IMG/VR virus record: IMGVR_UViG_3300025128_000235
Coordinates: 1 to 28,427 of that record
Length of the DNA stretch: 28,427 bases
Reading direction: 5' to 3' (one strand)
From: a virus
Made by a program: the position numbers and the translations under genes. Below, one piece after another: positions 5,449 to 15,909 of the stretch. The notes under the pieces are model-generated. The model was not told the DNA's origin. It did no database searches and was given only the letters and a program-made list of their open reading frames with translations. Numbering within the stretch: the stretch's first letter is position 1; every line of letters starts with the position of its first letter.

Positions 5449-5790
5449 ATGGCTTCAAATATTAAAGTTGCAATAGCAACTGGAGATGCTGTTCTTAAAT
5501 ATGTAGATACTGACACAACTGTTGGAAGCAACGGAACTGCTGATGCTAACATTCCAAGCACGACACGCATTGTAGCTATTCATGCATTGGCAACAGCGGC
5601 TGGTTCCTATTCGATCAAAGGTCAACGTCAGATTACAAATAAGACTGCCGAAGGTACAGCTATTAAGTTTCAGGTAGCAGCCAACGAAGCTTCGGATATT
5701 TATATCGGAGACATGGGTGTTGCGGTTTACGGTGTGGTCAGTATTTCTGGTCCCACTGATGGTTGCGTTCTAACTGCTATGCTTGGCTAG
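5449..5790 (+). CDS. Small structural protein downstream of capsid gene (putative)
   Basis: The start is ATG 5449, after AAAGGAGAG; the frame is open further upstream but that part overlaps the hairpin. The 113-residue product (begins MASNIKVAIATGDAVLKY) is rich in Ala, Thr, Gly and beta-branched residues, has no membrane segment, and contains TTRIVAIHALATAAGSYSIK and a C-terminal VSISGPTDGCVLTAML. It looks like one compact beta domain. Placed between the capsid protein and an adaptor-like protein, it is probably a virion component such as a decoration protein, but I recognise no named family. Confidence 0.65.
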   Translation: MASNIKVAIATGDAVLKYVDTDTTVGSNGTADANIPSTTRIVAIHALATAAGSYSIKGQRQITNKTAEGTAIKFQVAANEASDIYIGDMGVAVYGVVSISGPTDGCVLTAMLG

Positions 5791-5792
5791 TC

Positions 5793-6473
5793 ATGCCTGA
5801 CTACGCATATTTAAAATCAGATTTAATTAATACGACTGAAAACGACTCAACGGAGTTTGCAACGCAGATTCCCTTTTTCATTACCAAAGCAGAATTTCGC
5901 ATCACAAAAGATATTGATGATGTGGGTTTGGATGAATACACAACCGTTTCAGTTTCATCAGGGAATGCAGGTGCCGTTCCGCTGAATGATCGTGTACGTA
6001 TTGTTCGTAACGTAAACTATACTGTAAGTACAGGAACCACTGTAACCAATTTGCTGCAACGAACTGTTGAGTATGCAAATGATTACTGGCCTGTAAGTGC
6101 ATCCACAGGCACCCCCAGATATTATTCACGGCGTACTAACTCAAGCATTAAGATAGTACCTACACCAGTTTCAGCAACCACTGTTGAAATACAAACGGCA
6201 TCACAACCGCTTGCATTGGCATCGGCAACAGGCACAAGTGTTACAACCAGTAACTACTTTAGTGAATACTGTTACGATGCCTTATTTTATGGTTGCCTTA
6301 TAGAAGCTACCATGTACATGAAGGATTGGGAAACTCTTCAGGTATGGCAAACAGAATATCAAAACGCAATTCAAACCCTCCGTAATCAGGCTCGCAGAAC
6401 TAGACAGGACGACATGGAAGTTGCAGCTTCTCCTGCTGGCGGTCCTAATACAATTACTCAAGCAGGATCATAA
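5793..6473 (+). CDS. Head-tail adaptor-like protein (first copy)
   Basis: ATG 5793 (MPDYAYLKSDL) is two bases after the previous stop; the frame opens earlier without a sensible start. The 226-residue product has an N-terminal helical region, a beta middle (VEYANDYWPVSASTGTPRYY, then SSIKIVPTPVSATTVEIQ) and a C-terminal helical region with many aromatics (FSEYCYDALFYGCLIEATMY, then WQTEYQNAIQTLRNQARR). This layout is that of podovirus adaptor proteins (gp11/gp4/tail tubular A type), which bind the bottom of the portal and receive the nozzle. A second protein of similar plan is encoded at 12459-13133, so division of labour between them is open. Confidence 0.6.
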   Translation: MPDYAYLKSDLINTTENDSTEFATQIPFFITKAEFRITKDIDDVGLDEYTTVSVSSGNAGAVPLNDRVRIVRNVNYTVSTGTTVTNLLQRTVEYANDYWPVSASTGTPRYYSRRTNSSIKIVPTPVSATTVEIQTASQPLALASATGTSVTTSNYFSEYCYDALFYGCLIEATMYMKDWETLQVWQTEYQNAIQTLRNQARRTRQDDMEVAASPAGGPNTITQAGS

Positions 6474-6484
6474 GGAGAATATAA

Positions 6485-7432
6485 ATGGCAAGGTTTGTAC
6501 GTAAAATTCTAAATCCAAAAGAAGTTACTAGAAGATTAAAGGGTAGGGGAAAATCGCCATCCAAACAATCTGGTACACCGGGCGGCAATATACCACAGAA
6601 AAGCAACAAAAAACCAACATCAAAACCTATTGATGATGAAAAGGGTCGTGGTCGTGGCAAGTTTCAAAAAGGTTCTGCTCCTGCTCCACAGAATCAAAAT
6701 GTTTCTACAAGAGTTGAAGACGATGCAGCAGACTTTGTTAATAAGGGTGGTGCTGGTAAAGTAGAATCCCGTGGTGGTCGTATGGTTCGTGGGACTGTTG
6801 GTGATGGCAATAAAAGCAGTTCTGAAGCTGGTAAAGAAAAAGCAAGACTTTCTAAATTTATAAGAGAAAGTGATGATAAAGAAGCAGTAAAGAAAGCAAA
6901 GCGTAAGCTTGCACAAATGAATAGAAACGATGAAGTTGCTACAGATAAAGCAAGAAGTTCTGCTGCTAAAACTAGACGAGCTACTGCTGAAAAAAATAGA
7001 GGTAAAATTAAAGACCCTGCTGGACACTTTATGCAAACAGGGGAGATTGTAGAAGGCTTTAATCCTACTCCTAATCAAATTAAAAAAGCAAATATGAATG
7101 CAGGTAGGCGTAAGGCAATGCCTAAAAAAGGTGGCGGCTACATGAAAAAGAAAATGTCTGTCGGCGGTCCACTAAAGATGGTAGAAAAGAATGGTAAAAA
7201 AGTTCCGTTCTATGCTGCTGATGGTGTAGGTAAGATGTCTAAAGGTGGCAAAGTTAGTAAATCAATGGGTGAAGATCGTACCAGTGTTCCCAAAAGCTTG
7301 TCAGCAAAAGCTCAATCTAAGAAACCTGTAAAGAAAAAGATGGGCGGCGGTAAAGTTTACAAACGTAAGTATGGTGGCAAGACTGTTTCTGCTAATGATG
7401 GTGACAGTTTCGTAGCCGCTTATTATGACTAA
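6485..7432 (+). CDS. Large lysine-rich protein with GG-K basic motifs
   Basis: ATG 6485 follows TAAGGAG. The 315-residue product is strongly basic and low in hydrophobics, with charged helical segments (EKARLSKFIRESDDKEAVKK) and Gly-rich basic patches towards the C-terminus: MPKKGGGYMKKKMSVGGPLK, then GVGKMSKGGKVSKSMG, then KKKMGGGKVYKRKYGGKTVS. It ends with an unexpected acidic/aromatic GDSFVAAYYD. The GG-K patches echo the tails of the following proteins. It is the first gene of the basic block; function is unknown. A DNA-binding internal virion protein is a reasonable guess. Its last 8 bases overlap the next gene. Confidence 0.65.
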   Translation: MARFVRKILNPKEVTRRLKGRGKSPSKQSGTPGGNIPQKSNKKPTSKPIDDEKGRGRGKFQKGSAPAPQNQNVSTRVEDDAADFVNKGGAGKVESRGGRMVRGTVGDGNKSSSEAGKEKARLSKFIRESDDKEAVKKAKRKLAQMNRNDEVATDKARSSAAKTRRATAEKNRGKIKDPAGHFMQTGEIVEGFNPTPNQIKKANMNAGRRKAMPKKGGGYMKKKMSVGGPLKMVEKNGKKVPFYAADGVGKMSKGGKVSKSMGEDRTSVPKSLSAKAQSKKPVKKKMGGGKVYKRKYGGKTVSANDGDSFVAAYYD

Positions 7433-7783: not shown

Positions 7784-9241
7784 ATGGTTGCAAGAGATCA
7801 ACTCTTAAAAGCTATTGAACAGGTTGAAAGCGGAGGACGCAGAGACGCTGTTAGTCCTAAAGGTGCCAGAGGTCGTATGCAGGTTATGCCAGCAACGGCA
7901 CGGCAACCGGGATACAGAGTTAAACCTGCTCGTGATGAAAGCGAAGAAGAGTATACCAGAGTTGGTAAAGACTATGCTATGGCATTGCTTAAAAACTATG
8001 GTGGTGATCTTGAGGCTACACTTGTTGCCTATAACTATGGACCGGGAAATGCTAACAAATGGATAGCTTCTGGTAGAAATAAAAGCGATCTTCCCAAAGA
8101 AACCAGAGATTATATTACCAAAGTTGGCAAGCAACTTGGAGGAAAAAACATGGCAACTAAAAAACAACTTACCGATCAAAGAAAAGCTTTGCAGCGTAAG
8201 GTGCGTAGTGGTAGTGCTACTGACGCTGATAAAAGAAAATTAAAACGTATTCAAATTGAATTGGGTTCTAAGGGTAAGACTACAGCTAAAGCAAAAGCTT
8301 CTGCATCTAAAGTAAAGAGACGGAATACTTCTCTTCAACGTGAAGCTGCTTCAAGAAAGGCGGAAGCAGGTCGTAGAGCGGCTCTTCAACAATTAATGGA
8401 AGACTCTCTCCCACTAGATGAAGACGTTGCAGGTAGAGCTTTAGATCAAGGCGCATATGCTAAGTATTCAGAACCACAACGAGCCGCTCTTAATAAGGCA
8501 CTACAAAGAGAACGTACTCCTTCAGACTTTGAAAGAACACCTCAACGTGGAGGAGCGTTTATAGGATCACCCCCTCTTCAACGTAGAGCAGACGATATAG
8601 CTTTACCTTTTAATAGAACCACAGGTAATAGGGGTACGATGCGTCCTCCTAATGTTGATCCTGATCTTCAACGTGGTGTAAGTCGTGTACCAAGAGGAGA
8701 TATGAGAATTGGTCCTTCCTCTCCAGAAATTACTGAAGCACAGTTTTCTTATACTGATCCCGGTACGATTCCTACTGAAGACCAATTTAGAGCTATGAGA
8801 GACACTCCAAGAGGAAGCGATACTCCTATAAGAGAAAATACGCAAGCCGATTATGTATCCAGTGGTGGTCGTGGTAAGATGGCTGGTAATAAAGGTTATG
8901 AAACTCTTCGTGAGTATTTTATTGAAGACATGACACCTCGCAAATCTAATGTGATGACTCCTTTTGGTATTATTGAAATTGACAGTACTCAGGAAGGAAT
9001 GTTTCCTGAAGAAGGTATGTACAGTGAAAAGAAGGGTGGCCGCTTAAAAAAGAAGAAGCGTGTTGCTCGTAAGAAAGCTGCACCTAAAAAGAAAAAGGTT
9101 GCTGCAAAGAAGAAGCCTGTTGTGCGTAAGAAAGCTGTTGCAAAGAAGCCGCCCATGCGTAAGAAGACTGTGGCTAAAAAACCTGCTGGTCGTAAACGTG
9201 CAGCCAAGAGAGGCTTTGGCGCAGAACTTAGAGGTAACTAA
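7784..9241 (+). CDS. Lytic transglycosylase domain fused to a long basic tail
   Basis: Residues 1-120 form a short SLT (lysozyme-like) domain: IEQVESGG with the presumed catalytic Glu15, GRMQVMPATA at 30-39, AYNYGPGN at 82-89 and ETRDYITKV at 106-114. These enzymes cleave the MurNAc-GlcNAc bond of peptidoglycan; in virions they open a local path for the tail or ejected proteins. The remaining ~365 residues are unlike known hydrolases: basic helices (125-200), a polar low-complexity middle, and residues 412-485 made of Lys/Arg-Ala-Pro repeats reminiscent of histone H1 tails, ending KRGFGAELRGN. An in-frame ATG at 8150 (residue 123, MATKKQLT) has an excellent GGAGGA site, so a second, shorter product without the enzyme domain is plausible. 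It is more likely a virion-associated hydrolase than the lysis endolysin. Confidence 0.8.
   Translation: MVARDQLLKAIEQVESGGRRDAVSPKGARGRMQVMPATARQPGYRVKPARDESEEEYTRVGKDYAMALLKNYGGDLEATLVAYNYGPGNANKWIASGRNKSDLPKETRDYITKVGKQLGGKNMATKKQLTDQRKALQRKVRSGSATDADKRKLKRIQIELGSKGKTTAKAKASASKVKRRNTSLQREAASRKAEAGRRAALQQLMEDSLPLDEDVAGRALDQGAYAKYSEPQRAALNKALQRERTPSDFERTPQRGGAFIGSPPLQRRADDIALPFNRTTGNRGTMRPPNVDPDLQRGVSRVPRGDMRIGPSSPEITEAQFSYTDPGTIPTEDQFRAMRDTPRGSDTPIRENTQADYVSSGGRGKMAGNKGYETLREYFIEDMTPRKSNVMTPFGIIEIDSTQEGMFPEEGMYSEKKGGRLKKKKRVARKKAAPKKKKVAAKKKPVVRKKAVAKKPPMRKKTVAKKPAGRKRAAKRGFGAELRGN
8138..8152 (+). promoter_or_regulatory. Internal ribosome binding site and in-frame start in the transglycosylase gene
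   Basis: GGAGGA at 8138-8143 lies 7 bases (counted from the end of GGAGG) before ATG 8150, in frame with the enclosing gene. It is a better site than the one before the annotated start at 7784. Initiation here would give a 363-residue protein beginning MATKKQLTDQRKALQRK, consisting only of the basic part. The site could equally be the relic of two genes joined by loss of a stop codon. Confidence 0.5.
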
Positions 9242-9242
9242 T

Positions 9243-9650
9243 ATGGTTGACTTTAAAGCTAAAATAAAAGCACAGAAATCTAAAGATAGAGAACGGGCTG
9301 GTAAAAAAAGAAAGTCTGTTGAAGGACATAGAATGCCTTCAGCACCAAGAGCTTCTATTCCTTCTGCTAGAAAAAGAGAAGATAATAGTGCTGCAATTAT
9401 GAAAGGTGTTACTGATCTTTTTAAAGACAAAGATATAGATATACCAACAGGTAGTGAAGTACAAGAGCTAGAAGATTATGTTTCTGGTTATGGTAATCCA
9501 ATAGGTGATGGACCTGCTGATGTTAGTTTTGGTCCGTTATATGAAGGAGCCGGTTATAGTGTTTTTAAAAAGGGCGGTCGTCTTAAAAAGGCTGGTAAAA
9601 GAAAACGTGCAGCACTTAGAGGGCAACGCTCTGAACTGAGAGGATCGTAA
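9243..9650 (+). CDS. Basic hypothetical protein with shared C-terminal tail (type X)
   Basis: ATG 9243 (MVDFKAKIKAQKSKDRERAG) follows the previous stop by one base; the frame is open upstream inside the transglycosylase gene but that part is a shadow. The 135-residue product has a basic N-terminal helix, a mixed middle (AAIMKGVTDLFKDKDIDIPT, then VSGYGNPIGDGPADVSFG) and a C-terminal tail FKKGGRLKKAGKRKRAALRG followed by QRSELRGS. The last 16 residues are the same as in the next protein. Function is unknown; the tail suggests the same destination as its neighbours. Confidence 0.65.
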   Translation: MVDFKAKIKAQKSKDRERAGKKRKSVEGHRMPSAPRASIPSARKREDNSAAIMKGVTDLFKDKDIDIPTGSEVQELEDYVSGYGNPIGDGPADVSFGPLYEGAGYSVFKKGGRLKKAGKRKRAALRGQRSELRGS

Positions 9651-9654
9651 CATG
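9606..9654 (+). repeat. Direct repeat X, copy 1 (end of the 135-aa gene)
   Basis: Bases 9606-9654 match 9889-9937 at 43 of 49 positions by hand alignment. They encode the RAALRGQRSELRGS tail, the stop, and the ATG of the following gene. Differences that change the DNA in the coding part are all silent. Confidence 0.75.
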
Positions 9655-9933
9655 AGTAATAAAAAATTAAGAAAGACTGTTACTTCTGATTTAGATAAAC
9701 CAAAAGAAGAAGAAAAGAAAAGTGAAAGAGATGAGCTTTTTGATAACTTAGGATCAGGCATGGGACTTTTACCTGCTGTTGTTGGAGCGATGGGTCCAAA
9801 AGGATTAACATCTATTGGACTTGTTAAAGGACTTTTTGGAAAAAGTAAGGGTGGTAAAATAGGTAAGAAAAAAACCACTGTTAAAAAACGTGCAGCACTT
9901 CGTGGACAACGCTCTGAATTAAGAGGATCGTAA
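9652..9933 (+). CDS. Small basic hypothetical protein, mosaic ends
   Basis: The 93-residue product starts MSNKKLRKTVTSDL, a leader repeated almost exactly (one change) in the protein at 10353. A charged segment (KPKEEEKKSERDELFDNL) follows, then a Gly-rich apolar stretch (GSGMGLLPAVVGAMGPKG), and the tail KSKGGKIGKKKTTVKKRAAL plus RGQRSELRGS, shared with the preceding protein. The apolar middle is too short and glycine-rich to call a membrane segment with confidence. The gene begins one base after the previous stop. Function unknown. Confidence 0.65.
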   Translation: MSNKKLRKTVTSDLDKPKEEEKKSERDELFDNLGSGMGLLPAVVGAMGPKGLTSIGLVKGLFGKSKGGKIGKKKTTVKKRAALRGQRSELRGS

Positions 9934-9937
9934 TATG
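9889..9937 (+). repeat. Direct repeat X, copy 2 (end of the 93-aa gene)
   Basis: This is the second copy of the 49-base repeat described at 9606-9654, 283 bases downstream. Again it carries the tail, the stop and the ATG of the next gene, so the repeat spans a gene junction. Confidence 0.75.
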
Positions 9938-10336
9938 GCTAAAGACTATAAAGATGATGTAAGTCTTTTTGAAGAACTTCTGGAAGAATATGAAGAAGAA
10001 GAAGATGCGGAAGAAGTAGGCTCTCCAGTTCCCGGTGATAACATTAGTGTAATACGCCAACAGGTACAGAGTGGCGGCGGCGGTGGCGGTGGCGGTGGTT
10101 TTCTTAAAACAATACTTCCCATAGCTGCTAAAATAGGAATGGGTTATCTGACGGGTGGTGCCAGTGCTGCTGGTGGAAGTACTTTTGCATCTGGATTTGC
10201 TGGCGCACCGGCAGTAGGTTTTAAAGAAGGCGGTCAGATAAAAAAGAAAACTAAGAAAAAGAAAAGAGTTGTTCGTGGTGTAGGAGCAGCTAAACGTGGT
10301 TACGGTAAAGCCACTTATTCTAATAAAATGTATTAA
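9935..10336 (+). CDS. Acidic head, poly-Gly, apolar middle, basic tail (type Y)
   Basis: The 133-residue protein is sharply divided. Residues 1-30 are acidic (FEELLEEYEEEEDAEEV); a linker leads to nine consecutive glycines (encoded at 10073-10099); an apolar stretch follows (FLKTILPIAAKIGMGYLTGG, then a Gly/Ala-rich run to FASGFAGAPAVGF); and the last ~35 residues are strongly basic (EGGQIKKKTKKKKRVVRG, then VGAAKRGYGKATYSNKMY). The tail is the same as in the protein at 10353. The charge asymmetry with an apolar centre would suit a membrane-active or DNA-contacting virion peptide, but no family is recognised. Confidence 0.65.
   Translation: MAKDYKDDVSLFEELLEEYEEEEDAEEVGSPVPGDNISVIRQQVQSGGGGGGGGGFLKTILPIAAKIGMGYLTGGASAAGGSTFASGFAGAPAVGFKEGGQIKKKTKKKKRVVRGVGAAKRGYGKATYSNKMY
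10073..10099 (+). repeat. Run of nine Gly codons (GGC/GGT)
   Basis: Nine glycine codons in a row, alternating GGC and GGT, form a short GC-rich microsatellite inside an AT-rich gene. It separates the acidic head of the protein from its apolar middle and probably acts as a flexible hinge. Length variation by slippage would keep the frame. Confidence 0.8.
10219..10334 (+). repeat. Direct repeat Y, copy 1
   Basis: Bases 10219-10334 match 10634-10749 (offset 415) with three mismatches, at 10234, 10243 and 10246. The last 88 bases (10247-10334) are identical. It encodes the basic tail FKEGGQIKKKTKKKK through YSNKMY of the 133-residue protein. Confidence 0.85.
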
Positions 10337-10352
10337 TGGATAGTCTTTAGTC

Positions 10353-10751
10353 ATGAGTAATAAATCATTAAGAAAAACTGTTACTTCAGACCTTGCTCCA
10401 AAAGAAGAGAAGAAGAAGAAAAAGAAACGAAAAGACCTTGCCGGTGGTGTAGGGAGAAGTGTTGTTGGTCAGATTCCTGTTGTTGGTCAATTTTTAGGTG
10501 CTGGCAATGCTCTTTTTCAAGGAATTACAGGAGAGCCGGGACCGTTTGGAAGTGGGTCTGGTATTGCAGAAGGAAATATAGGAAAAATACTTTTTGATCC
10601 TGATGATATTTTAGGTGCTTTCGGAGTGGATATTTTTAAAGAAGGCGGACAGATAAAGAAAAAAACTAAGAAAAAGAAAAGAGTTGTTCGTGGTGTAGGA
10701 GCAGCTAAACGTGGTTACGGTAAAGCCACTTATTCTAATAAAATGTATTGA
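10353..10751 (+). CDS. Mosaic basic protein: leader of one neighbour, tail of another
   Basis: The 132-residue product opens MSNKSLRKTVTSDL, nearly the leader of the protein at 9652, and closes with the same basic tail as the protein at 9935. Between them lie a Lys run (KEEKKKKKKRKDL), an apolar Gly-rich segment (GGVGRSVVGQIPVVGQFLGA) and a spacer (IGKILFDPDDILGAFGVDIF). It therefore looks like a chimera of two flanking genes. A 16-base gap separates it from the previous gene, and its stop is followed by a GAGGAG site for the next. Function unknown; virion association is inferred from context only. Confidence 0.65.
   Translation: MSNKSLRKTVTSDLAPKEEKKKKKKRKDLAGGVGRSVVGQIPVVGQFLGAGNALFQGITGEPGPFGSGSGIAEGNIGKILFDPDDILGAFGVDIFKEGGQIKKKTKKKKRVVRGVGAAKRGYGKATYSNKMY
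10634..10749 (+). repeat. Direct repeat Y, copy 2
   Basis: This is the second copy of the 116-base repeat (see 10219-10334). Identity ends at the stop codon, which is TAA in copy 1 and TGA in copy 2, so the duplicated unit is essentially the tail-coding segment. Confidence 0.85.
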
Positions 10752-10761
10752 GGAGATTAAG

Positions 10762-11442
10762 ATGGCAAGAGCTAAAATAGGTAAAGCATTTATAGATGCA
10801 GTTACAGGGACAAGCAAACCCACTTCTAAACCGGGCCGGAAGCGTAAAGCCAGAGGTGTTAAAGCCGCCACGCCTGAACAGAAGATGGGTGCTAAAGAAG
10901 CTAAGATGAAGCTTACTGACTTTAAAAAACTTTCAGATGCTCAACAGAAAAGATTTATTAAAGAAGCTAAAGATGCTAACAAGCCAAAGAAAAAGAAAAA
11001 GCCAGCCAAAGTAAAACGTAGTTCCAAAGATAATAAAGAACTGCAAGGTCTTATAGCGCAGCAAAAAAAAGAAATGAAAGAAGATGAATTAGGATCAGAC
11101 ATTCTTCCCAGACGACGTGCCACTGGTCCTACAGGACAAGAAGTAGAACAAGGTCCATTGCTTTCCAAAGTACCTACACCTAAGAAAAACGAAATGTCTT
11201 CTGAAACATATAAACGTCAGAAGAGAACAGGACAACGCCGCAGAGGAGAGTATGCTCCTCCTGCCAGTATGGTAGGCGAAGAGATGGGCATGGGCGGCAG
11301 AGGTCGTGAGATGATGCCTACTGGTAAAGAACTTGAAGAACTAATTTCAAGTGGCTTTGAGATTAAAAAGTATGGTGGTAAAGTAAGGCGTCGTATGGGA
11401 GGACAAGTACGAGGCTACGGTAAGGCTCTTCGTGGTTACTAA
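10762..11442 (+). CDS. Lysine-rich protein with GG-K/RGYGKA tail
   Basis: The ATG at 10762 (MARAKIGKAFIDAVTG) follows a GAGGAG site; the frame is open upstream only through the repeat. The 226-residue product has a basic start (SKPGRKRKARGVKAA), charged helices (LSDAQQKRFIKEAKDANK), a Lys run (KPKKKKKPAKVKRSS), a polar middle and the tail EIKKYGGKVRRRMGGQVRGY followed by GKALRGY. The tail follows the same scheme as those of the five preceding proteins but is not a recent copy. The role is unknown; DNA binding is likely from composition. Confidence 0.65.
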   Translation: MARAKIGKAFIDAVTGTSKPTSKPGRKRKARGVKAATPEQKMGAKEAKMKLTDFKKLSDAQQKRFIKEAKDANKPKKKKKPAKVKRSSKDNKELQGLIAQQKKEMKEDELGSDILPRRRATGPTGQEVEQGPLLSKVPTPKKNEMSSETYKRQKRTGQRRRGEYAPPASMVGEEMGMGGRGREMMPTGKELEELISSGFEIKKYGGKVRRRMGGQVRGYGKALRGY

Positions 11443-11635
11443 AGAATTTATTATTAGATACAATAAGTCTGTTCAGGAAGGTTATGACGATCCTACTTTA
11501 ATAGATAATTCAGGTACTAGACCTAATAAAGAAGACTATAAAGATTTTAATGAATATATAAATAGTCTTTGTAACTATATAGGAAAAAAATTTAGGTATA
11601 CATATGGCAGTAAAGCAAAAAAGAAAACCCAGTAA
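11432..11635 (+). CDS. Small hypothetical protein, 67 aa, GTG start
   Basis: The frame opens at GTG 11432 inside the end of the previous gene and ends inside the next (32-base overlap). The product (VTKEFIIRYNKSVQEGYDD, then NKEDYKDFNEYINSLCNYIG, ending SKAKKKTQ) is acidic to neutral and probably helical, unlike the basic proteins around it. There is no strong ribosome site, so expression would depend on coupling to the gene upstream. It fills what would otherwise be a gap of ~160 bases. I am only moderately sure it is a real gene. Confidence 0.45.
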   Translation: MVTKEFIIRYNKSVQEGYDDPTLIDNSGTRPNKEDYKDFNEYINSLCNYIGKKFRYTYGSKAKKKTQ

Positions 11636-11903
11636 CATGAAGGGCATGACTATTGGTCGGGGCATGAAGCGTCCCACCAAGTCAGGTGCTGGCATGACTA
11701 AGAAGGGTGTGGCTAAATATCGTAGGCAGAATCCCGGCTCTAAGCTAAAGACTGCTGTAACCGAAAAGAAACCTACAGGCAAACGTGCAGCAAGGCGTAA
11801 GTCATATTGCGCTAGGTCTGCTGGACAAATGAAGAAGTTTCCGAAAGCTGCTAAGAATCCTAATAGCAGACTAAGACAAGCTCGTAAAAGATGGAGATGT
11901 TAA
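11604..11903 (+). CDS. Small basic protein, DUF6321-like
   Basis: The 99-residue product carries GMTKKGVAKYRRQNPGSKLK, then RRKSYCARSAGQMKK, and ends RLRQARKRWRC. This order (G-[ML]-[ST]-x-K-G-x-x-x-Y-[RN]-R plus K-S-[FY]-C-A-R and a terminal W-x-C) is one I recall in a widespread small family of phages and bacteria, listed I believe as DUF6321; the name is from memory. The two Cys residues and dense Lys/Arg content suggest nucleic-acid or metal binding. It overlaps the next ATG by one base (TAATG). Confidence 0.75.
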   Translation: MAVKQKRKPSNMKGMTIGRGMKRPTKSGAGMTKKGVAKYRRQNPGSKLKTAVTEKKPTGKRAARRKSYCARSAGQMKKFPKAAKNPNSRLRQARKRWRC

Positions 11904-12061
11904 TGGCACCTAAAAAACTTACAAATAGACAAAAGACTACACTTAAAAAACATTCTAAACATCATACTAAAAAACATATGACTAGTATGAAAACGGCAAT
12001 GAGAAAAGGAAAAACTTTTGGGGCTGCTCATAAGAAAGCTATGAAAAAAGTAGGTCGATAA
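11903..12061 (+). CDS. Small Lys/His-rich protein, 52 aa
   Basis: The start overlaps the preceding stop (TAATG) and its own stop overlaps the next ATG in the same way. The product begins MAPKKLTNRQKTTLKKHSKH, continues HTKKHMTSMKTAMRKGKTF and ends HKKAMKKVGR; 18 of 52 residues are Lys or Arg and 5 are His. I recall closely similar short proteins in other marine phages (a KHS-x-HH-x-KKHM core followed by GK-[ST]-F-x-x-x-H-K-x-A-M-K-K-V-G). Function is unknown. Position, size and composition place it with its two neighbours as a conserved small-protein set. Confidence 0.75.
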   Translation: MAPKKLTNRQKTTLKKHSKHHTKKHMTSMKTAMRKGKTFGAAHKKAMKKVGR

Positions 12062-12459
12062 TGATTAAACGTAAGAAAGGCGGCACAGCCACTAAACGTG
12101 ACCCAAAGAAGTGGGCAGCGGCAAAGGCCAGAGCAAAGCGTAAGATGGGCGGTAAGCACTCTGCCAGAGCTATGCAGCTTGCTGTTAAGTATTACAAAGA
12201 TTCTGGTGGATCATACAGCGGTAAGAAAAAGTCTACTAATAAACTTTCGAAGTGGAGCAAACAAAAATGGCGCACGAAGTCAGGCAAACCCTCCAGCAAA
12301 ACCGGGGAGCGTTATCTACCGGAGAAAGCAATCAAGTCCCTGTCGTCAAAGGAATATGCAGCGACCACCAGAGCAAAGAGAAAAGGGACTGCTGCCGGGA
12401 AGCAGTTCGTGAAGCAGCCAAAAAGAATAGCGGCTAAAACTAAAAGGTATAGAACGTAA
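12061..12459 (+). CDS. Basic protein, DUF5872-like
   Basis: The 132-residue product is one-third Lys plus Arg (44 residues). It has the order KKWAAAKARAKRKMGGKHSA, RAMQLAVKYYKDSGGSYSGK, KWSKQKWRTKSGKPSSKTGE, RYLPEKAIKSLSSKEYAATT and KQFVKQPKRIAAKTKRYR. I recognise this as a conserved small family of large DNA viruses and phages, listed I believe as DUF5872 (from memory). The regular spacing of Trp, Gly and Lys blocks suggests folded helices rather than pure disorder. Its start and end both overlap neighbours by one base. Function unknown; nucleic-acid binding is a natural inference. Confidence 0.8.
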   Translation: MIKRKKGGTATKRDPKKWAAAKARAKRKMGGKHSARAMQLAVKYYKDSGGSYSGKKKSTNKLSKWSKQKWRTKSGKPSSKTGERYLPEKAIKSLSSKEYAATTRAKRKGTAAGKQFVKQPKRIAAKTKRYRT

Positions 12460-13133
12460 TGGCAGTATCAGGAACATATGACTTTAACCTTGACATAGAC
12501 GAGGTTATACAAGAAGCAATGGAGATGATTGGGGGTGAAGATACTCTTGGTCACGAACCTGCTTCTGCACGTCGATCTATAAATTTAATGTTGCGAGATT
12601 GGCAAAACCGTGGTATACTATTATGGACTACAAGTGTATCATCTCTTACTGTAACTGCAAGTACTACTTCTTATGATCTATCTTCTTCTACTATAGATGC
12701 TCTTGAAGTTGTGCTTAACAGAGATAATACAGATATTAAATTAGAACGTATAACACCTGAAGAGTTTTTGCTTATTCCTAATAAAACACAAACTGGAAGA
12801 TCATCTCAGTATTCAATCAGAAGGGGCAGGGACAATCCTGTTATGTCTGTATGGCCTATTCCTGAGAACTCTACAGATATTTTAAAGATTGAGGTATTCA
12901 GTGAACTTACCGATGTAAACAAATCGGCAGATCAGAATGCTGATGTTCCTAAAAGATTTTTACCCTGCCTTACTGCGGGACTGTCTTACTATATGTCAAT
13001 GAAACGATTTGGTGTAGATGCTGGTCGTATACAAATGCTAAAGTCAAACTATGAAGAGTGTCTTGCCAGAGCTATGCAGGAGGACAGGGAAAGAGCTTCA
13101 ATGCGTGTTGTGCCAAGACTAAGGTATATCTAA
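12459..13133 (+). CDS. Head-tail adaptor-like protein (second copy; tail tubular A type)
   Basis: The 224-residue product has an N-terminal helical domain (DIDEVIQEAMEMIGGEDTLG, then SINLMLRDWQNRGILLWT), a beta-rich middle (TASTTSYDLSSSTIDALEVV) and C-terminal helices (LTAGLSYYMSMKRFGVDAGR, then LKSNYEECLARAMQEDRERA). I recall N-x-M-L-x-x-W-x-x-x-G-x-x-L-W followed by a YxL strand from adaptor (gp4/gp11-like) proteins of short-tailed phages, which bind the portal base and hold DNA in the head. It resembles that family more clearly than the protein at 5793-6473. TAATG overlaps link it to both neighbours. Confidence 0.7.
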   Translation: MAVSGTYDFNLDIDEVIQEAMEMIGGEDTLGHEPASARRSINLMLRDWQNRGILLWTTSVSSLTVTASTTSYDLSSSTIDALEVVLNRDNTDIKLERITPEEFLLIPNKTQTGRSSQYSIRRGRDNPVMSVWPIPENSTDILKIEVFSELTDVNKSADQNADVPKRFLPCLTAGLSYYMSMKRFGVDAGRIQMLKSNYEECLARAMQEDRERASMRVVPRLRYI

Positions 13134-13408
13134 TGGCAAGTACTAAAAACGCACTGGCTATGTGCGATGTATGTGGATTTGTATATCCGCATCGTAATAT
13201 GAGAATGAACAGTTATGGGATGCTGGTATGTCCCGAAGACTTTGAAGGACAGTTTGATTTGAAGAACCATCCTCAAAATCATGTGCCTGATGTAAGAGAT
13301 AATCCAGCTATTCTTAATCCTCGTCCCGATACAGGTGGGCGTAATCTTACATGGAGTCAGGCCAGCACAGCTTGGGGATCAACAGATAAGTATTGGAATC
13401 TAATATGA
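13133..13408 (+). CDS. Small CxxC protein (putative zinc-binding structural protein)
   Basis: The start at 13133 overlaps the previous stop; earlier in-frame codons belong to another frame's gene. The 91-residue product has MCDVCGFVYPHRNMRMNSYG then MLVCPEDFEGQF, a C-x2-C plus downstream C-P pattern typical of small phage proteins in this position, followed by HPQNHVPDVRDNPAILNPRP. The usual fourth cysteine (C-x2-C) is absent here: CPED stands where CPxC would be expected, so a His or Asp may complete a site, or there is none. It probably belongs to the tail module between adaptor and fibre. Confidence 0.7.
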   Translation: MASTKNALAMCDVCGFVYPHRNMRMNSYGMLVCPEDFEGQFDLKNHPQNHVPDVRDNPAILNPRPDTGGRNLTWSQASTAWGSTDKYWNLI

Positions 13409-15909
13409 GCGATTTAACAAGTCAACTAATATCAAATACATATAAACAGATTATACTTGTTAGTTCTTCAACTAGCAATACAGGTGTAAATACTTCCCTA
13501 AAAGCGGTGCAGACAGGTGATGGAACTAATACTGCTCTGAAGGTAGCTACCAATGCAGTACAGATTACTGGCGCATTGGGTGTAGATGGTCTGGTATCTC
13601 TGGATGGAAATCTTCATGTAGATGACAAAGTATGTGCCAGTGCTTTCTATGGTGATGGTTCAAATCTTAGTGGTGTAACTGCAACGATTGCTGGTAACAT
13701 ATCAGTAAATAATGCTACGGTAGGTGGTAATCTTTATGTAGGCGGTACTGCCACAGTTGCTGGTGCGGCACACCTACAGTCAAGTCTGTCCGTTGCAGGG
13801 GCTGCTCAGTTTGCCAGTACGGTGACTGTAGTTGGTGCAGCACAATTCCAAAGCACGGTAACTGCTGTTGGTGCAGCTACTTTTAAATCTACAGTTACAG
13901 TAGAAAATGTAGCAGCCCTGAAAAATAACGTAACAGTTGGTGGTACGTTTAATGTAGCTGGTGCAGCTACCTTTACCTCTAAAACAGAGTTTGATAATGA
14001 TGTATCAGTTAGTGGACGTTTGGATGTTGCTTCTTCTGTTTGTGTAGGAGGCATTGCAAACTTTGCTGATGATGTATCAGTAAGCGGAAATATAAATGTA
14101 GTTGGTAATGTAACGGCTGCATACTATTATGGTGATGGTTCTAATCTCACAAACGTGGAAGCTGAACTTGGTATTGCCACAAACATCTCTGTATCAGGAT
14201 TTATAAATGCTGGTGGTAATGTATCAGTAAGCGGTACTTTAAATGTTATTGGTACAGTAACTATTGCTGGTACTAATGTTCAAGCAGAAAATGCAAGAGT
14301 ATGTGCAAGTGCTTACTATGGAGATGGTTCTAATTTAACAGGTATTTCAGCAGATATAAGTGGAAATATTTCTGTTAACAATGCTACGATTGGTGGTAAC
14401 TTATTTGTAGGTGGTACTGTAACAGTCGTTGGTGCTGCTACATTTGATGATGACGTATCAGTAAGTGGTAATACAAATCTTGGTGGTACGGTAACTGTAG
14501 GTGGGGCAGTCAGCCTTGCATCAACTCTTAGTGTTGGAGGTGCAGCAAACTTTGCCTCTACAGTGACCATAGCAGGGGCTGTGAGCCTTAACTCTACTCT
14601 TTCGGTAGGTGGGGCTACCCATCTTGCCAGTACCGTCACAGTGGCCGGGAAAGCCATCTTTGAAGACAGTGTGTCTGTAAGCGGTAATCTGGATGTAGGT
14701 GGCAATGTTTCAGTTGGTGGAACACTCTTTGCTGCTGGAGGAATTACTTATGATGGAGATGTATCTGTTAGTGGTGACTTGGCCGTTGGCGGTAATGTAT
14801 CTATTGGTGGTACACTCAGCGTTACAGGTGCAGTATCTCTTGCATCTACTCTTAGTGTAGGAGGAGCAACTAATCTAGCAAGCACTGTTACTGTAGTGGG
14901 TGCTGGTACATTTAAAGATAGTGTATCTGTATCAGGTAATGTTAATATAGGCGGAACTGTAACGATAGGTGGAGCAGTGTCTCTGGCTTCTACACTATCA
15001 GTAGGAGGAGCAACTAATCTGGGAAGTACTGTTACCGTAGTAGGTGCTGGTACATTTAAAGATAGTGTCTCAGTTTCAGGTAATGTAAACATAGGTGGCA
15101 CTGTAACAATAGGTGGTGCGGTATCACTAGCATCAACTCTTTCAGTAGGAGGAGCAGCACACTTTGCATCTACAGTTACAGTAGCCGGGGCAGCAATCTT
15201 TGAAGATGCAGTTTCAGTATCAGGTGCAGTAGATATAGCTGGTAATACTTCTATTGGTGGTACACTAATAACCACAGGTAAGGCAGAGTTTGAAGATGAT
15301 GTATCTGTATCAGGTAACTCAAACTTTGGCGGAACAGTTACTGTTGGTGGTGCTGTATCGCTTGCATCAACTCTTAGTGTTGGTGGAGCAGCTAACTTTG
15401 CCAGTACAGTTACAATAGCTGGTGCAGTAAGTCTTAACTCTACACTTAGTGTTGGTGGGGCAACTAATCTTCTTAGCACAGTAACTGCTGCTGGCAATGC
15501 TGGCTTTCTTGGTACTGTACGAGTGTCTGGCAATACGTCACTGGAGGGACAACTACAACTAACTGAATCAGCGGCTGCTGCTGTACATACCACTGCAATC
15601 AATGGTGTAACATCTGTATCCCTAAACTTTGGTATAGCACAGAACTTCTTTACCTCTGTTACTGCTGCACATACACTGGCACGACCTACCAATGCAAGGG
15701 TAGGACAGGTTGGTAGTATTCTGCTTATGCAGGATGGTGGTTCTGGTACGGTTGCTTATAATGCCTGTTGGAACTTTATTGGCGGCACAGCCCCAACATT
15801 TTCAACTGCTGACAATGCAATGGATAGACTGGATTATATTGTTGTATCTATTTCTACTGATAACACTGCTGAGAATATTCAAGCAGTTATGACACAAGCT
15901 TATAGTTAG
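13405..15909 (+). CDS. Repeat-built tail fibre
   Basis: ATG 13405 overlaps the preceding TGA (ATGA). The 834-residue product has a short N-terminal part (~1-70), a very long repetitive shaft (~70-710) built of short Gly/Val/Ser units such as VSVSGNVNIGGTVTIGG and AVSLASTLSVGGA with YGDGSNL(T/S)G inserts, and a non-repetitive C-terminal domain (IAQNFFTSVTAAHTLARPTN, then GQVGSILLMQDGGSGTVAYN). Such shafts usually form trimeric beta structures, and the C-terminal domain resembles ones I recall at the end of marine phage fibres. It is probably a receptor-binding or long structural fibre. Internal duplications are annotated separately. Some units carry the sense of hexapeptide-like beta-helix repeats, though the fold cannot be proved by eye. 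Confidence 0.75.
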   Translation: MSDLTSQLISNTYKQIILVSSSTSNTGVNTSLKAVQTGDGTNTALKVATNAVQITGALGVDGLVSLDGNLHVDDKVCASAFYGDGSNLSGVTATIAGNISVNNATVGGNLYVGGTATVAGAAHLQSSLSVAGAAQFASTVTVVGAAQFQSTVTAVGAATFKSTVTVENVAALKNNVTVGGTFNVAGAATFTSKTEFDNDVSVSGRLDVASSVCVGGIANFADDVSVSGNINVVGNVTAAYYYGDGSNLTNVEAELGIATNISVSGFINAGGNVSVSGTLNVIGTVTIAGTNVQAENARVCASAYYGDGSNLTGISADISGNISVNNATIGGNLFVGGTVTVVGAATFDDDVSVSGNTNLGGTVTVGGAVSLASTLSVGGAANFASTVTIAGAVSLNSTLSVGGATHLASTVTVAGKAIFEDSVSVSGNLDVGGNVSVGGTLFAAGGITYDGDVSVSGDLAVGGNVSIGGTLSVTGAVSLASTLSVGGATNLASTVTVVGAGTFKDSVSVSGNVNIGGTVTIGGAVSLASTLSVGGATNLGSTVTVVGAGTFKDSVSVSGNVNIGGTVTIGGAVSLASTLSVGGAAHFASTVTVAGAAIFEDAVSVSGAVDIAGNTSIGGTLITTGKAEFEDDVSVSGNSNFGGTVTVGGAVSLASTLSVGGAANFASTVTIAGAVSLNSTLSVGGATNLLSTVTAAGNAGFLGTVRVSGNTSLEGQLQLTESAAAAVHTTAINGVTSVSLNFGIAQNFFTSVTAAHTLARPTNARVGQVGSILLMQDGGSGTVAYNACWNFIGGTAPTFSTADNAMDRLDYIVVSISTDNTAENIQAVMTQAYS
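14482..14619 (+). repeat. Fibre shaft repeat B, copy 1
   Basis: Codons 14482-14619 encode 46 residues (from GGTVTVGGAVSL to TLSVGGAT) that recur without any amino-acid change at 15328-15465, 846 bases downstream. A large share of the codons differ, all synonymously. Confidence 0.75.
14884..15171 (+). repeat. Tandem 144-base units in the fibre shaft
   Basis: Two adjacent 48-residue units (14884-15027 and 15028-15171) share their first 43 residues exactly (TVTVVGAGTFKDSVSVSGNV through SLASTLSVGGA), then differ in the last five (TNLGS against AHFAS). Within the 43 identical residues, 19 codons differ, all silently. Confidence 0.85.
15328..15465 (+). repeat. Fibre shaft repeat B, copy 2
   Basis: Second copy of the 46-residue segment at 14482-14619, identical in protein and heavily different in codon choice. 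Confidence 0.75.

Follow-up and report, generated by a model that had tools for sequence, protein, structure and literature searches.

Six adjacent genes in the structural region of an uncultured marine short-tailed phage end in a few versions of one cationic C-terminal tail. We found that the same tail type occurs on unrelated protein bodies and that related bodies carry different tail types. Moreover, the DNA encoding these tails recombines: the tails of neighbouring genes overwrite each other, and genes composed of a body plus a tail are gained and lost at the tail repeats. Besides this role of their DNA in recombination, we consider it fairly probable that the tails label head or ejection cargo with a common C-terminal tag.

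The cluster of tailed genes

The window, by which we mean the whole 28-kb record of an uncultured virus (28,427 nucleotides), contains the structural genes of a short-tailed phage. Among these are a portal, a GroES-like co-chaperonin, a capsid protein (Mu gpT-like/Phage_capsid_4 families), an SU10-type adaptor and a second adaptor. The tailed genes form a variable cluster that separates the head genes from the tail adaptor. It is flanked by two adaptor-like genes. The upstream one is the SU10-type adaptor gene (5763–6473; Pfam PF24175, E=1.5e-16). The downstream one (12459–13133), used as the anchor of the locus, was recognised by tblastn against isolate genes annotated as tail-adaptor or Pam1-adaptor (34–39% identity) and has relatives in Pelagibacter phages, Roseobacter phages and phage DSL-LC04. 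The six tailed genes and the two adaptor genes lie on the + strand, and genes are named by their first position.

Among the tailed proteins of the window, the largest is the 485-aa product of gene 7784 (7784–9241), a lytic transglycosylase. It has an SLT domain at its N-terminus (Pfam SLT, E=4e-18), and its C-terminus is rich in Lys and ends in KRAAKRGFGAELRGN (tail type T1). The basic region of this tail spans about 9035–9241 and has a charge of +31. The protein matches solved SLT70-type structures (E=8e-5) as well as PHROG entries of virion or lytic families, including an internal virion protein. The 135-aa protein of gene 9243 (9243–9650) ends in a tail of type T2, GGRLKKAGKRKRAALRGQRSELRGS (9573–9650). 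Gene 9652 (9652–9933; 93 aa) starts with the leader MSNKKLRKTVTSDL (9652–9693) and also ends in T2 (9850–9933). In an alignment of 15 orthologues, the 133-aa protein of gene 9935 (9935–10336) consists of an acidic N-terminus, a glycine run, a variable hydrophobic segment and a tail of type T3, GGQIKKKTKKKKRVVRGVGAAKRGYGKATYSNKMY (10229–10336). Gene 10353 (10353–10751; 132 aa) has the leader MSNKSLRKTVTSDL (10353–10394), a Gly/Ile-rich body and a T3 tail (10644–10751). The last of the six, gene 10762 (10762–11442; 226 aa), ends in type T4, GGKVRRRMGGQVRGYGKALRGY (11374–11442). The tailed genes are spaced by 1–16 bp. In general, a tail is laid out as a GG hinge, a Lys/Arg run and an ending such as RGxGAAxRGYGKA or RAALRGxRSELRG; its net charge is between +7 and +31, with at most one acidic residue per tail.

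All lineage sequences used for comparison (L numbers) are metagenome contigs. Annotated phages contained no match to the 1.1-kb region at the DNA level, and neither tblastn of the tail alone against annotated phages nor the host/prophage search with genome contigs gave a hit. In three contigs of 56–57 kb, matches to a tail HMM were confined to the cluster, where five tailed genes in one contig and one in each of the other two rose above noise, although remote tails elsewhere in the genome may be missed because the HMM was built from these same tails.

Several other features of the region were noted. A second shared C-terminus, GGxVYKRKxGGK...CYD, is present on two adjacent genes in both L006 (2059–3508) and L008 (3533–5198) and on only one window gene (6485–7432); the pattern is the same as that of the main tail. 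At 11891–12061 of the window, corresponding to 6423–6587 of L002, two unrelated small genes alternate in one slot behind the common start MEMLM, one in the window and L026 (MEMLMAPKKLTNRQ...), the other in L002 and L006 (MEMLMKKAVDAPKGFHW...). For the neighbouring DUF6321 protein (11604–11903, CARSAGQMKKFPKAAKNPNSRLRQARKRWRC), the matches in several PHROG families that otherwise differ lie at their C-terminal ends (for example residues 437–525 of 525 in phrog_10346 and 860–928 of 928 in phrog_3477), and the protein may be a C-terminal module that stands alone in the window; our literature search on DUF6321 found no paper. Further downstream, an 838-aa protein (13393–15909) is made up mostly of repeats of the kind VTVGGAVSLASTLSVGGA and is probably a fibre or tail protein.

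Tail-coding DNA recombines

To compare tails and bodies, we collected the ORFs ending in these tails from all loci (115 distinct proteins), removed the tails and clustered the bodies by single linkage. Several body families share the four tail types among them, and three of these families carry more than one type: the transglycosylase-slot family (T1, T2, T3 and T4), the family of 10762 (T4 and T3) and that of 9652 and 10353 (T2 and T3). Since these families are single-linkage clusters, direct pairs are the firmer evidence. The transglycosylase of L016 is 62% identical over 87 aa to the T1-tailed window transglycosylase and ends in T3. Similarly, a gene in L118 is 64% identical over 42 residues to the window transglycosylase protein, yet ends in the tail of 10762. 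Bodies homologous to 10762 in L056–L059 end in T3. The view of the first-pass annotation that tails are modules was thus borne out. Within the slot of gene 9935, furthermore, short hydrophobic stretches without relation to one another take the place of the segment that links the glycine run to the tail, for instance FLNTAMQMGKLAMMF or GLQTAMTIAKIGAMAAGVPLPF.

The first-pass annotation had proposed a comparison of tail presence, absence and exchange in relatives, and exchange was indeed seen. In L027, exactly one gene-plus-tail unit of 283 bp, that of gene 9652, is missing compared to L002 and L033, and the joint lies inside a 52-bp tail repeat. The flanks of the unit are 99.7–99.9% identical between L027 and L002/L033; further downstream, L027 and L033 are 98.5% identical. 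As the junction sequence is present in no contigs but these three, the absence of 9652 at such closeness is backed by a single contig; more distant relatives likewise have no 9652 gene. The pair 9243/9652 also shares a tail, a similarity of 58 nt at 86% identity that had gone unremarked, and T2 haplotypes have been swapped between the two slots among genomes. In addition, the same T3 tail can be followed by alternative genes, namely 10353, 11432, or the 10762 gene in either of two forms. A diversity-generating retroelement and integron-type cassettes were both considered and set aside, the changes being exchanges of existing blocks at homologous ends.

The T3 tails of genes 9935 and 10353 were known from the first-pass annotation to be nearly identical at the DNA level, and our alignment agrees: 10219–10334 and 10634–10749 (offset 415) match at 113 of 116 positions, with three differences, and 10247–10334 is identical to 10662–10749 over an unbroken 88 bases. 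This is the longest exact repeat in 9652–10751. It is not due to chance, since 200 codon shuffles gave repeats of 13 bases at most (mean 10).

When the two tails of one genome are compared, they differ at 10 of 111 positions in L002, at 8 in L123 and at 4 in the window; the other close lineages holding both genes thus show 8–10 differences. The relationships change along the tail. Over the first 21 bases, the window tail of 9935 has no difference to its orthologues in L002 and L007, and that of 10353 none to its orthologue in L002. From position 22 to 108, the two window tails are each other's closest match (no difference, next best three). This tract (copy 1 at 10247–10334 in gene 9935, copy 2 at 10662–10749 in gene 10353) mixes a base typical of 10353 (position 24), a pair typical of 9935 (32–33) and a base that is otherwise found only in the 10353 tail of L004 (60). 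At position 99, both window tails have a private base, which encodes Asn instead of Lys. The tail allele of the window was found in no other IMG/VR contig. Judged by this pattern, the window tails carry the signature of a recent ectopic conversion or recombination over about 88 bases, so that the first-pass annotation was right to call one exchange recent. We assign no direction to it, because positions 24 and 60 favour 10353 as the source and positions 32–33 favour 9935.

L123 is a second, separate case of homogenisation. Its two tails have a private synonymous C in common (position 93) and show no difference over positions 60–107, and upstream of this each keeps its own type. In L131, two tails share the start KAKKRKSKRVV, which is absent from the other lineages compared. 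An in-sample permutation test for a conversion tract on single pairs was weak (window p=0.09 with 19 polymorphic sites; L123 p=0.06; L002 p=1.0), so the case for homogenisation rests on the switching of nearest neighbours and on the private shared bases. In the window and in L123, the paralogous tracts are closer to each other than to their orthologues and their flanks are orthologue-like, as is expected for gene conversion; this pattern was not seen in the tails of L002.

The recent event concerns the tails and not the making of gene 10353, which the first-pass annotation had read as newly built from its neighbours, with the leader of 9652 and the tail of 9935. The two leaders, MSNKKLRKTVTSDL and MSNKSLRKTVTSDL, do agree in 13 of 14 residues, with one change as had been reported. 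The lack of divergence at silent sites, on the other hand, is found in the tail only; the two leaders differ in 7 of 42 bases. Since 4 of the 13 shared residues are encoded by another codon, the leader is old. It is identical base for base in the window, L002, L027 and L033. BLASTP pairs the N-terminal 44 residues of 9652 with those of 10353 at 52%, so that the leader is better described as an ancestral similarity of paralogues than as a recent copy; among the tailed proteins it is common to these two only, whereas the C-terminal element is shared widely. Moreover, a search of IMG/VR with the protein product of 10353 showed that its combination of body and tail type recurs in no fewer than four other close lineages (L002/L027/L033, L003, L004 and L123). 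A far diverged homologue is present in L131, with the same LAGGVG...IPVVGQFL body, the same tail type and an adjoining gene of this tail type. Because such orthologues exist in other lineages, 10353 is not a recent mosaic; its leader instead marks it as an old paralogue of 9652 that carries a 9935-type tail. The 16-base gap before the gene (10337–10352, TGGATAGTCTTTAGTC) resembles, in its first bases, the start of the 11432-type gene found behind the tail in L002, L010 and L044 (starts compared: TGGATAAAG and TGAATAAAG), and is possibly the scar of an earlier junction.

Selection on the tails and alternative explanations

The tails differ from the parts upstream of them in how they evolve. The pN/pS ratio of tail versus upstream part is 0.13 versus 0.63 for 9935, 0.22 versus 0.72 for 9243 and 0.07 versus 0.36 for 10762. 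The upstream parts, with ratios of 0.36–0.72, also contain many indels. Between orthologous tails, synonymous differences amount to 0.26–0.33 per site and non-synonymous ones to 0.02–0.07, and 90–97% of the amino acids are kept. As the ratios of the tails (0.07–0.22) are far below those upstream, the tails are held as protein, and the data indicate that large parts of each body change by drift or replacement while the tail protein is kept.

This bears directly on the idea that tail DNA is maintained chiefly because it offers a block of homology at which genes recombine and are swapped, its protein sequence being incidental. Gene gain and loss and the alternative downstream genes do meet exactly at the tail ends, as this idea would have it. 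However, silent sites in the tails differ by about 26–33% between orthologues while the amino acids stay, which means that selection acts on the tail protein and not on the DNA, and we regard this explanation as the least probable of those considered. Ordinary tandem duplication and divergence, in which 10353 arose from a neighbour and a fast body and a slow tail diverged without any tail transfer, is in line with the paralogy of 9652 and 10353 in leader and N-terminus and with the different rates of bodies and tails. It is nevertheless very unlikely, given that related bodies end in different tail types in three body families, that the tail haplotypes of 9243 and 9652 have been exchanged between genomes, and that nearest neighbours switch tract by tract within the tail. 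Slightly less probable still is an assembly artefact that copied one tail into both places or made the second gene a chimera. In favour of this, the window is a metagenome contig with a tail allele found in no other IMG/VR contig. Yet the upstream junction of 10353 recurs in L002, L027, L033 and L123 and its downstream junction to 10762 in L003, and the private base at position 99 sits only 11 bases before the copies diverge (position 110). A simple bubble collapse at k≥21 would not produce the identity, because the copies differ at positions 9, 18, 21 and 110 and no shared 21-base stretch flanks the tract.

The explanation that deserves more weight, although we find it rather doubtful, is that the tails are cationic low-complexity ends that bind nucleic acid, either condensing DNA in the head or binding it in the cell, and have no targeting function; sharing would then reflect a need for charge together with occasional recombination. 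The charges of +7 to +31 with hardly any acidic residue fit such ends, and so do the AlphaFold models, in which the tail part is of low confidence and mostly non-helical. What charge alone leaves unexplained are the near-invariant non-basic residues (RGxGAAKRGxGKATYSxKMY, ALRGQRSELRG), which persist while synonymous sites diverge.

Proposed role of the tails and comparison with known systems

By analogy with known cargo proteins, we favour the reading that the tail is a tag by which head cargo is addressed or bound. As a common tag, it would bring proteins into the virion head, onto the DNA or to the inner shell, and the tailed proteins would be ejection or internal proteins, with the transglycosylase as the clearest cargo. 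Sharing the tag would allow any new body to become cargo, and conservation of the tag DNA would make bodies exchangeable. A broader version, which we put forward only tentatively, is that the C-terminal cationic tag is a general virion-cargo address, that any body bearing it is loaded into the head, and that recombination at the tag inserts and removes cargo genes and keeps them in step. The AlphaFold models of 10353 and 9935 (mean pLDDT 46 and 53) were too poor to use. All proteins with this tail can be grouped into a single class regardless of their bodies, which gives a handle on uncharacterised genes of marine phages. If the tag directs cargo into heads, chosen proteins could be loaded into harmless phage particles.

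Among isolates, Pelagibacter phage HTVC023P, Roseobacter phage CRP-901 and phage DSL-LC04 have a related tail adaptor (34–39%) and a similar order of GroES, capsid and adaptor genes. In contrast to the window, they have no recognisable copy of the window tails. In HTVC023P, two genes of this interval, encoding gp51 and gp53, contain RGGGAAVRGMGFKGVF and RGFGAAR motifs (RGxGAA type) close to the C-terminus. CRP-901 has no cluster of such genes from the capsid region to the adaptor.

Transglycosylases are known from podophage ejection proteins: gp20 of SU10 is released from the head and has transglycosylase activity (PMC9509320), and gp16 of T7 is another such protein (PMC11440229). The window resembles these phages in having a transglycosylase in a virion gene module, a likeness that applies to 7784 only. 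We know of no ejection proteins with a C-terminal tail common to several small neighbouring genes.

Repeats at gene boundaries that permit the shuffling of gene cassettes have been described in T4-type phages as PeSL (Arbiol 2010 and Comeau 2014, as cited in PMC4503421). According to this citing account, the PeSL repeat is a promoter plus stem-loop, whereas the repeat found here is coding sequence at the gene end. The gaps between the tailed genes are too short to hold a promoter plus stem-loop, and the tails are therefore not PeSL elements. Our data show that phages can swap small genes of a virion module precisely through conserved coding ends instead of intergenic elements.

A close parallel to a shared tag is found in the internal head proteins IPI–IPIII of T4, small proteins with divergent mature parts and a common 10-residue N-terminal capsid targeting sequence (PMC9026906). 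The propeptides of IPII and IPIII are identical, the tag is cleaved by gp21, and it has been proposed in a review that it lets T4-like phages take in varied proteins (PMC9026906). As in T4, several window proteins with unrelated bodies have a short terminal peptide in common. The T4 tag, however, is N-terminal, about 10 residues long and cleaved, while the tails described here are C-terminal, at least 22 residues long and strongly cationic, on proteins for which a head location is suggested by analogy. Because of this difference in position, the tails do not belong to the T4 capsid targeting sequence family. A Pfam scan of ten window proteins, six of them in the head region, detected no protease family, so that these proteins give no indication of a processed signal as in T4. 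Nevertheless, the tail system would seem to work like a tag-sharing cargo system. If the broader version of this reading is true, the cationic tag would be a C-terminal, self-recombining counterpart of the T4 capsid targeting sequence.
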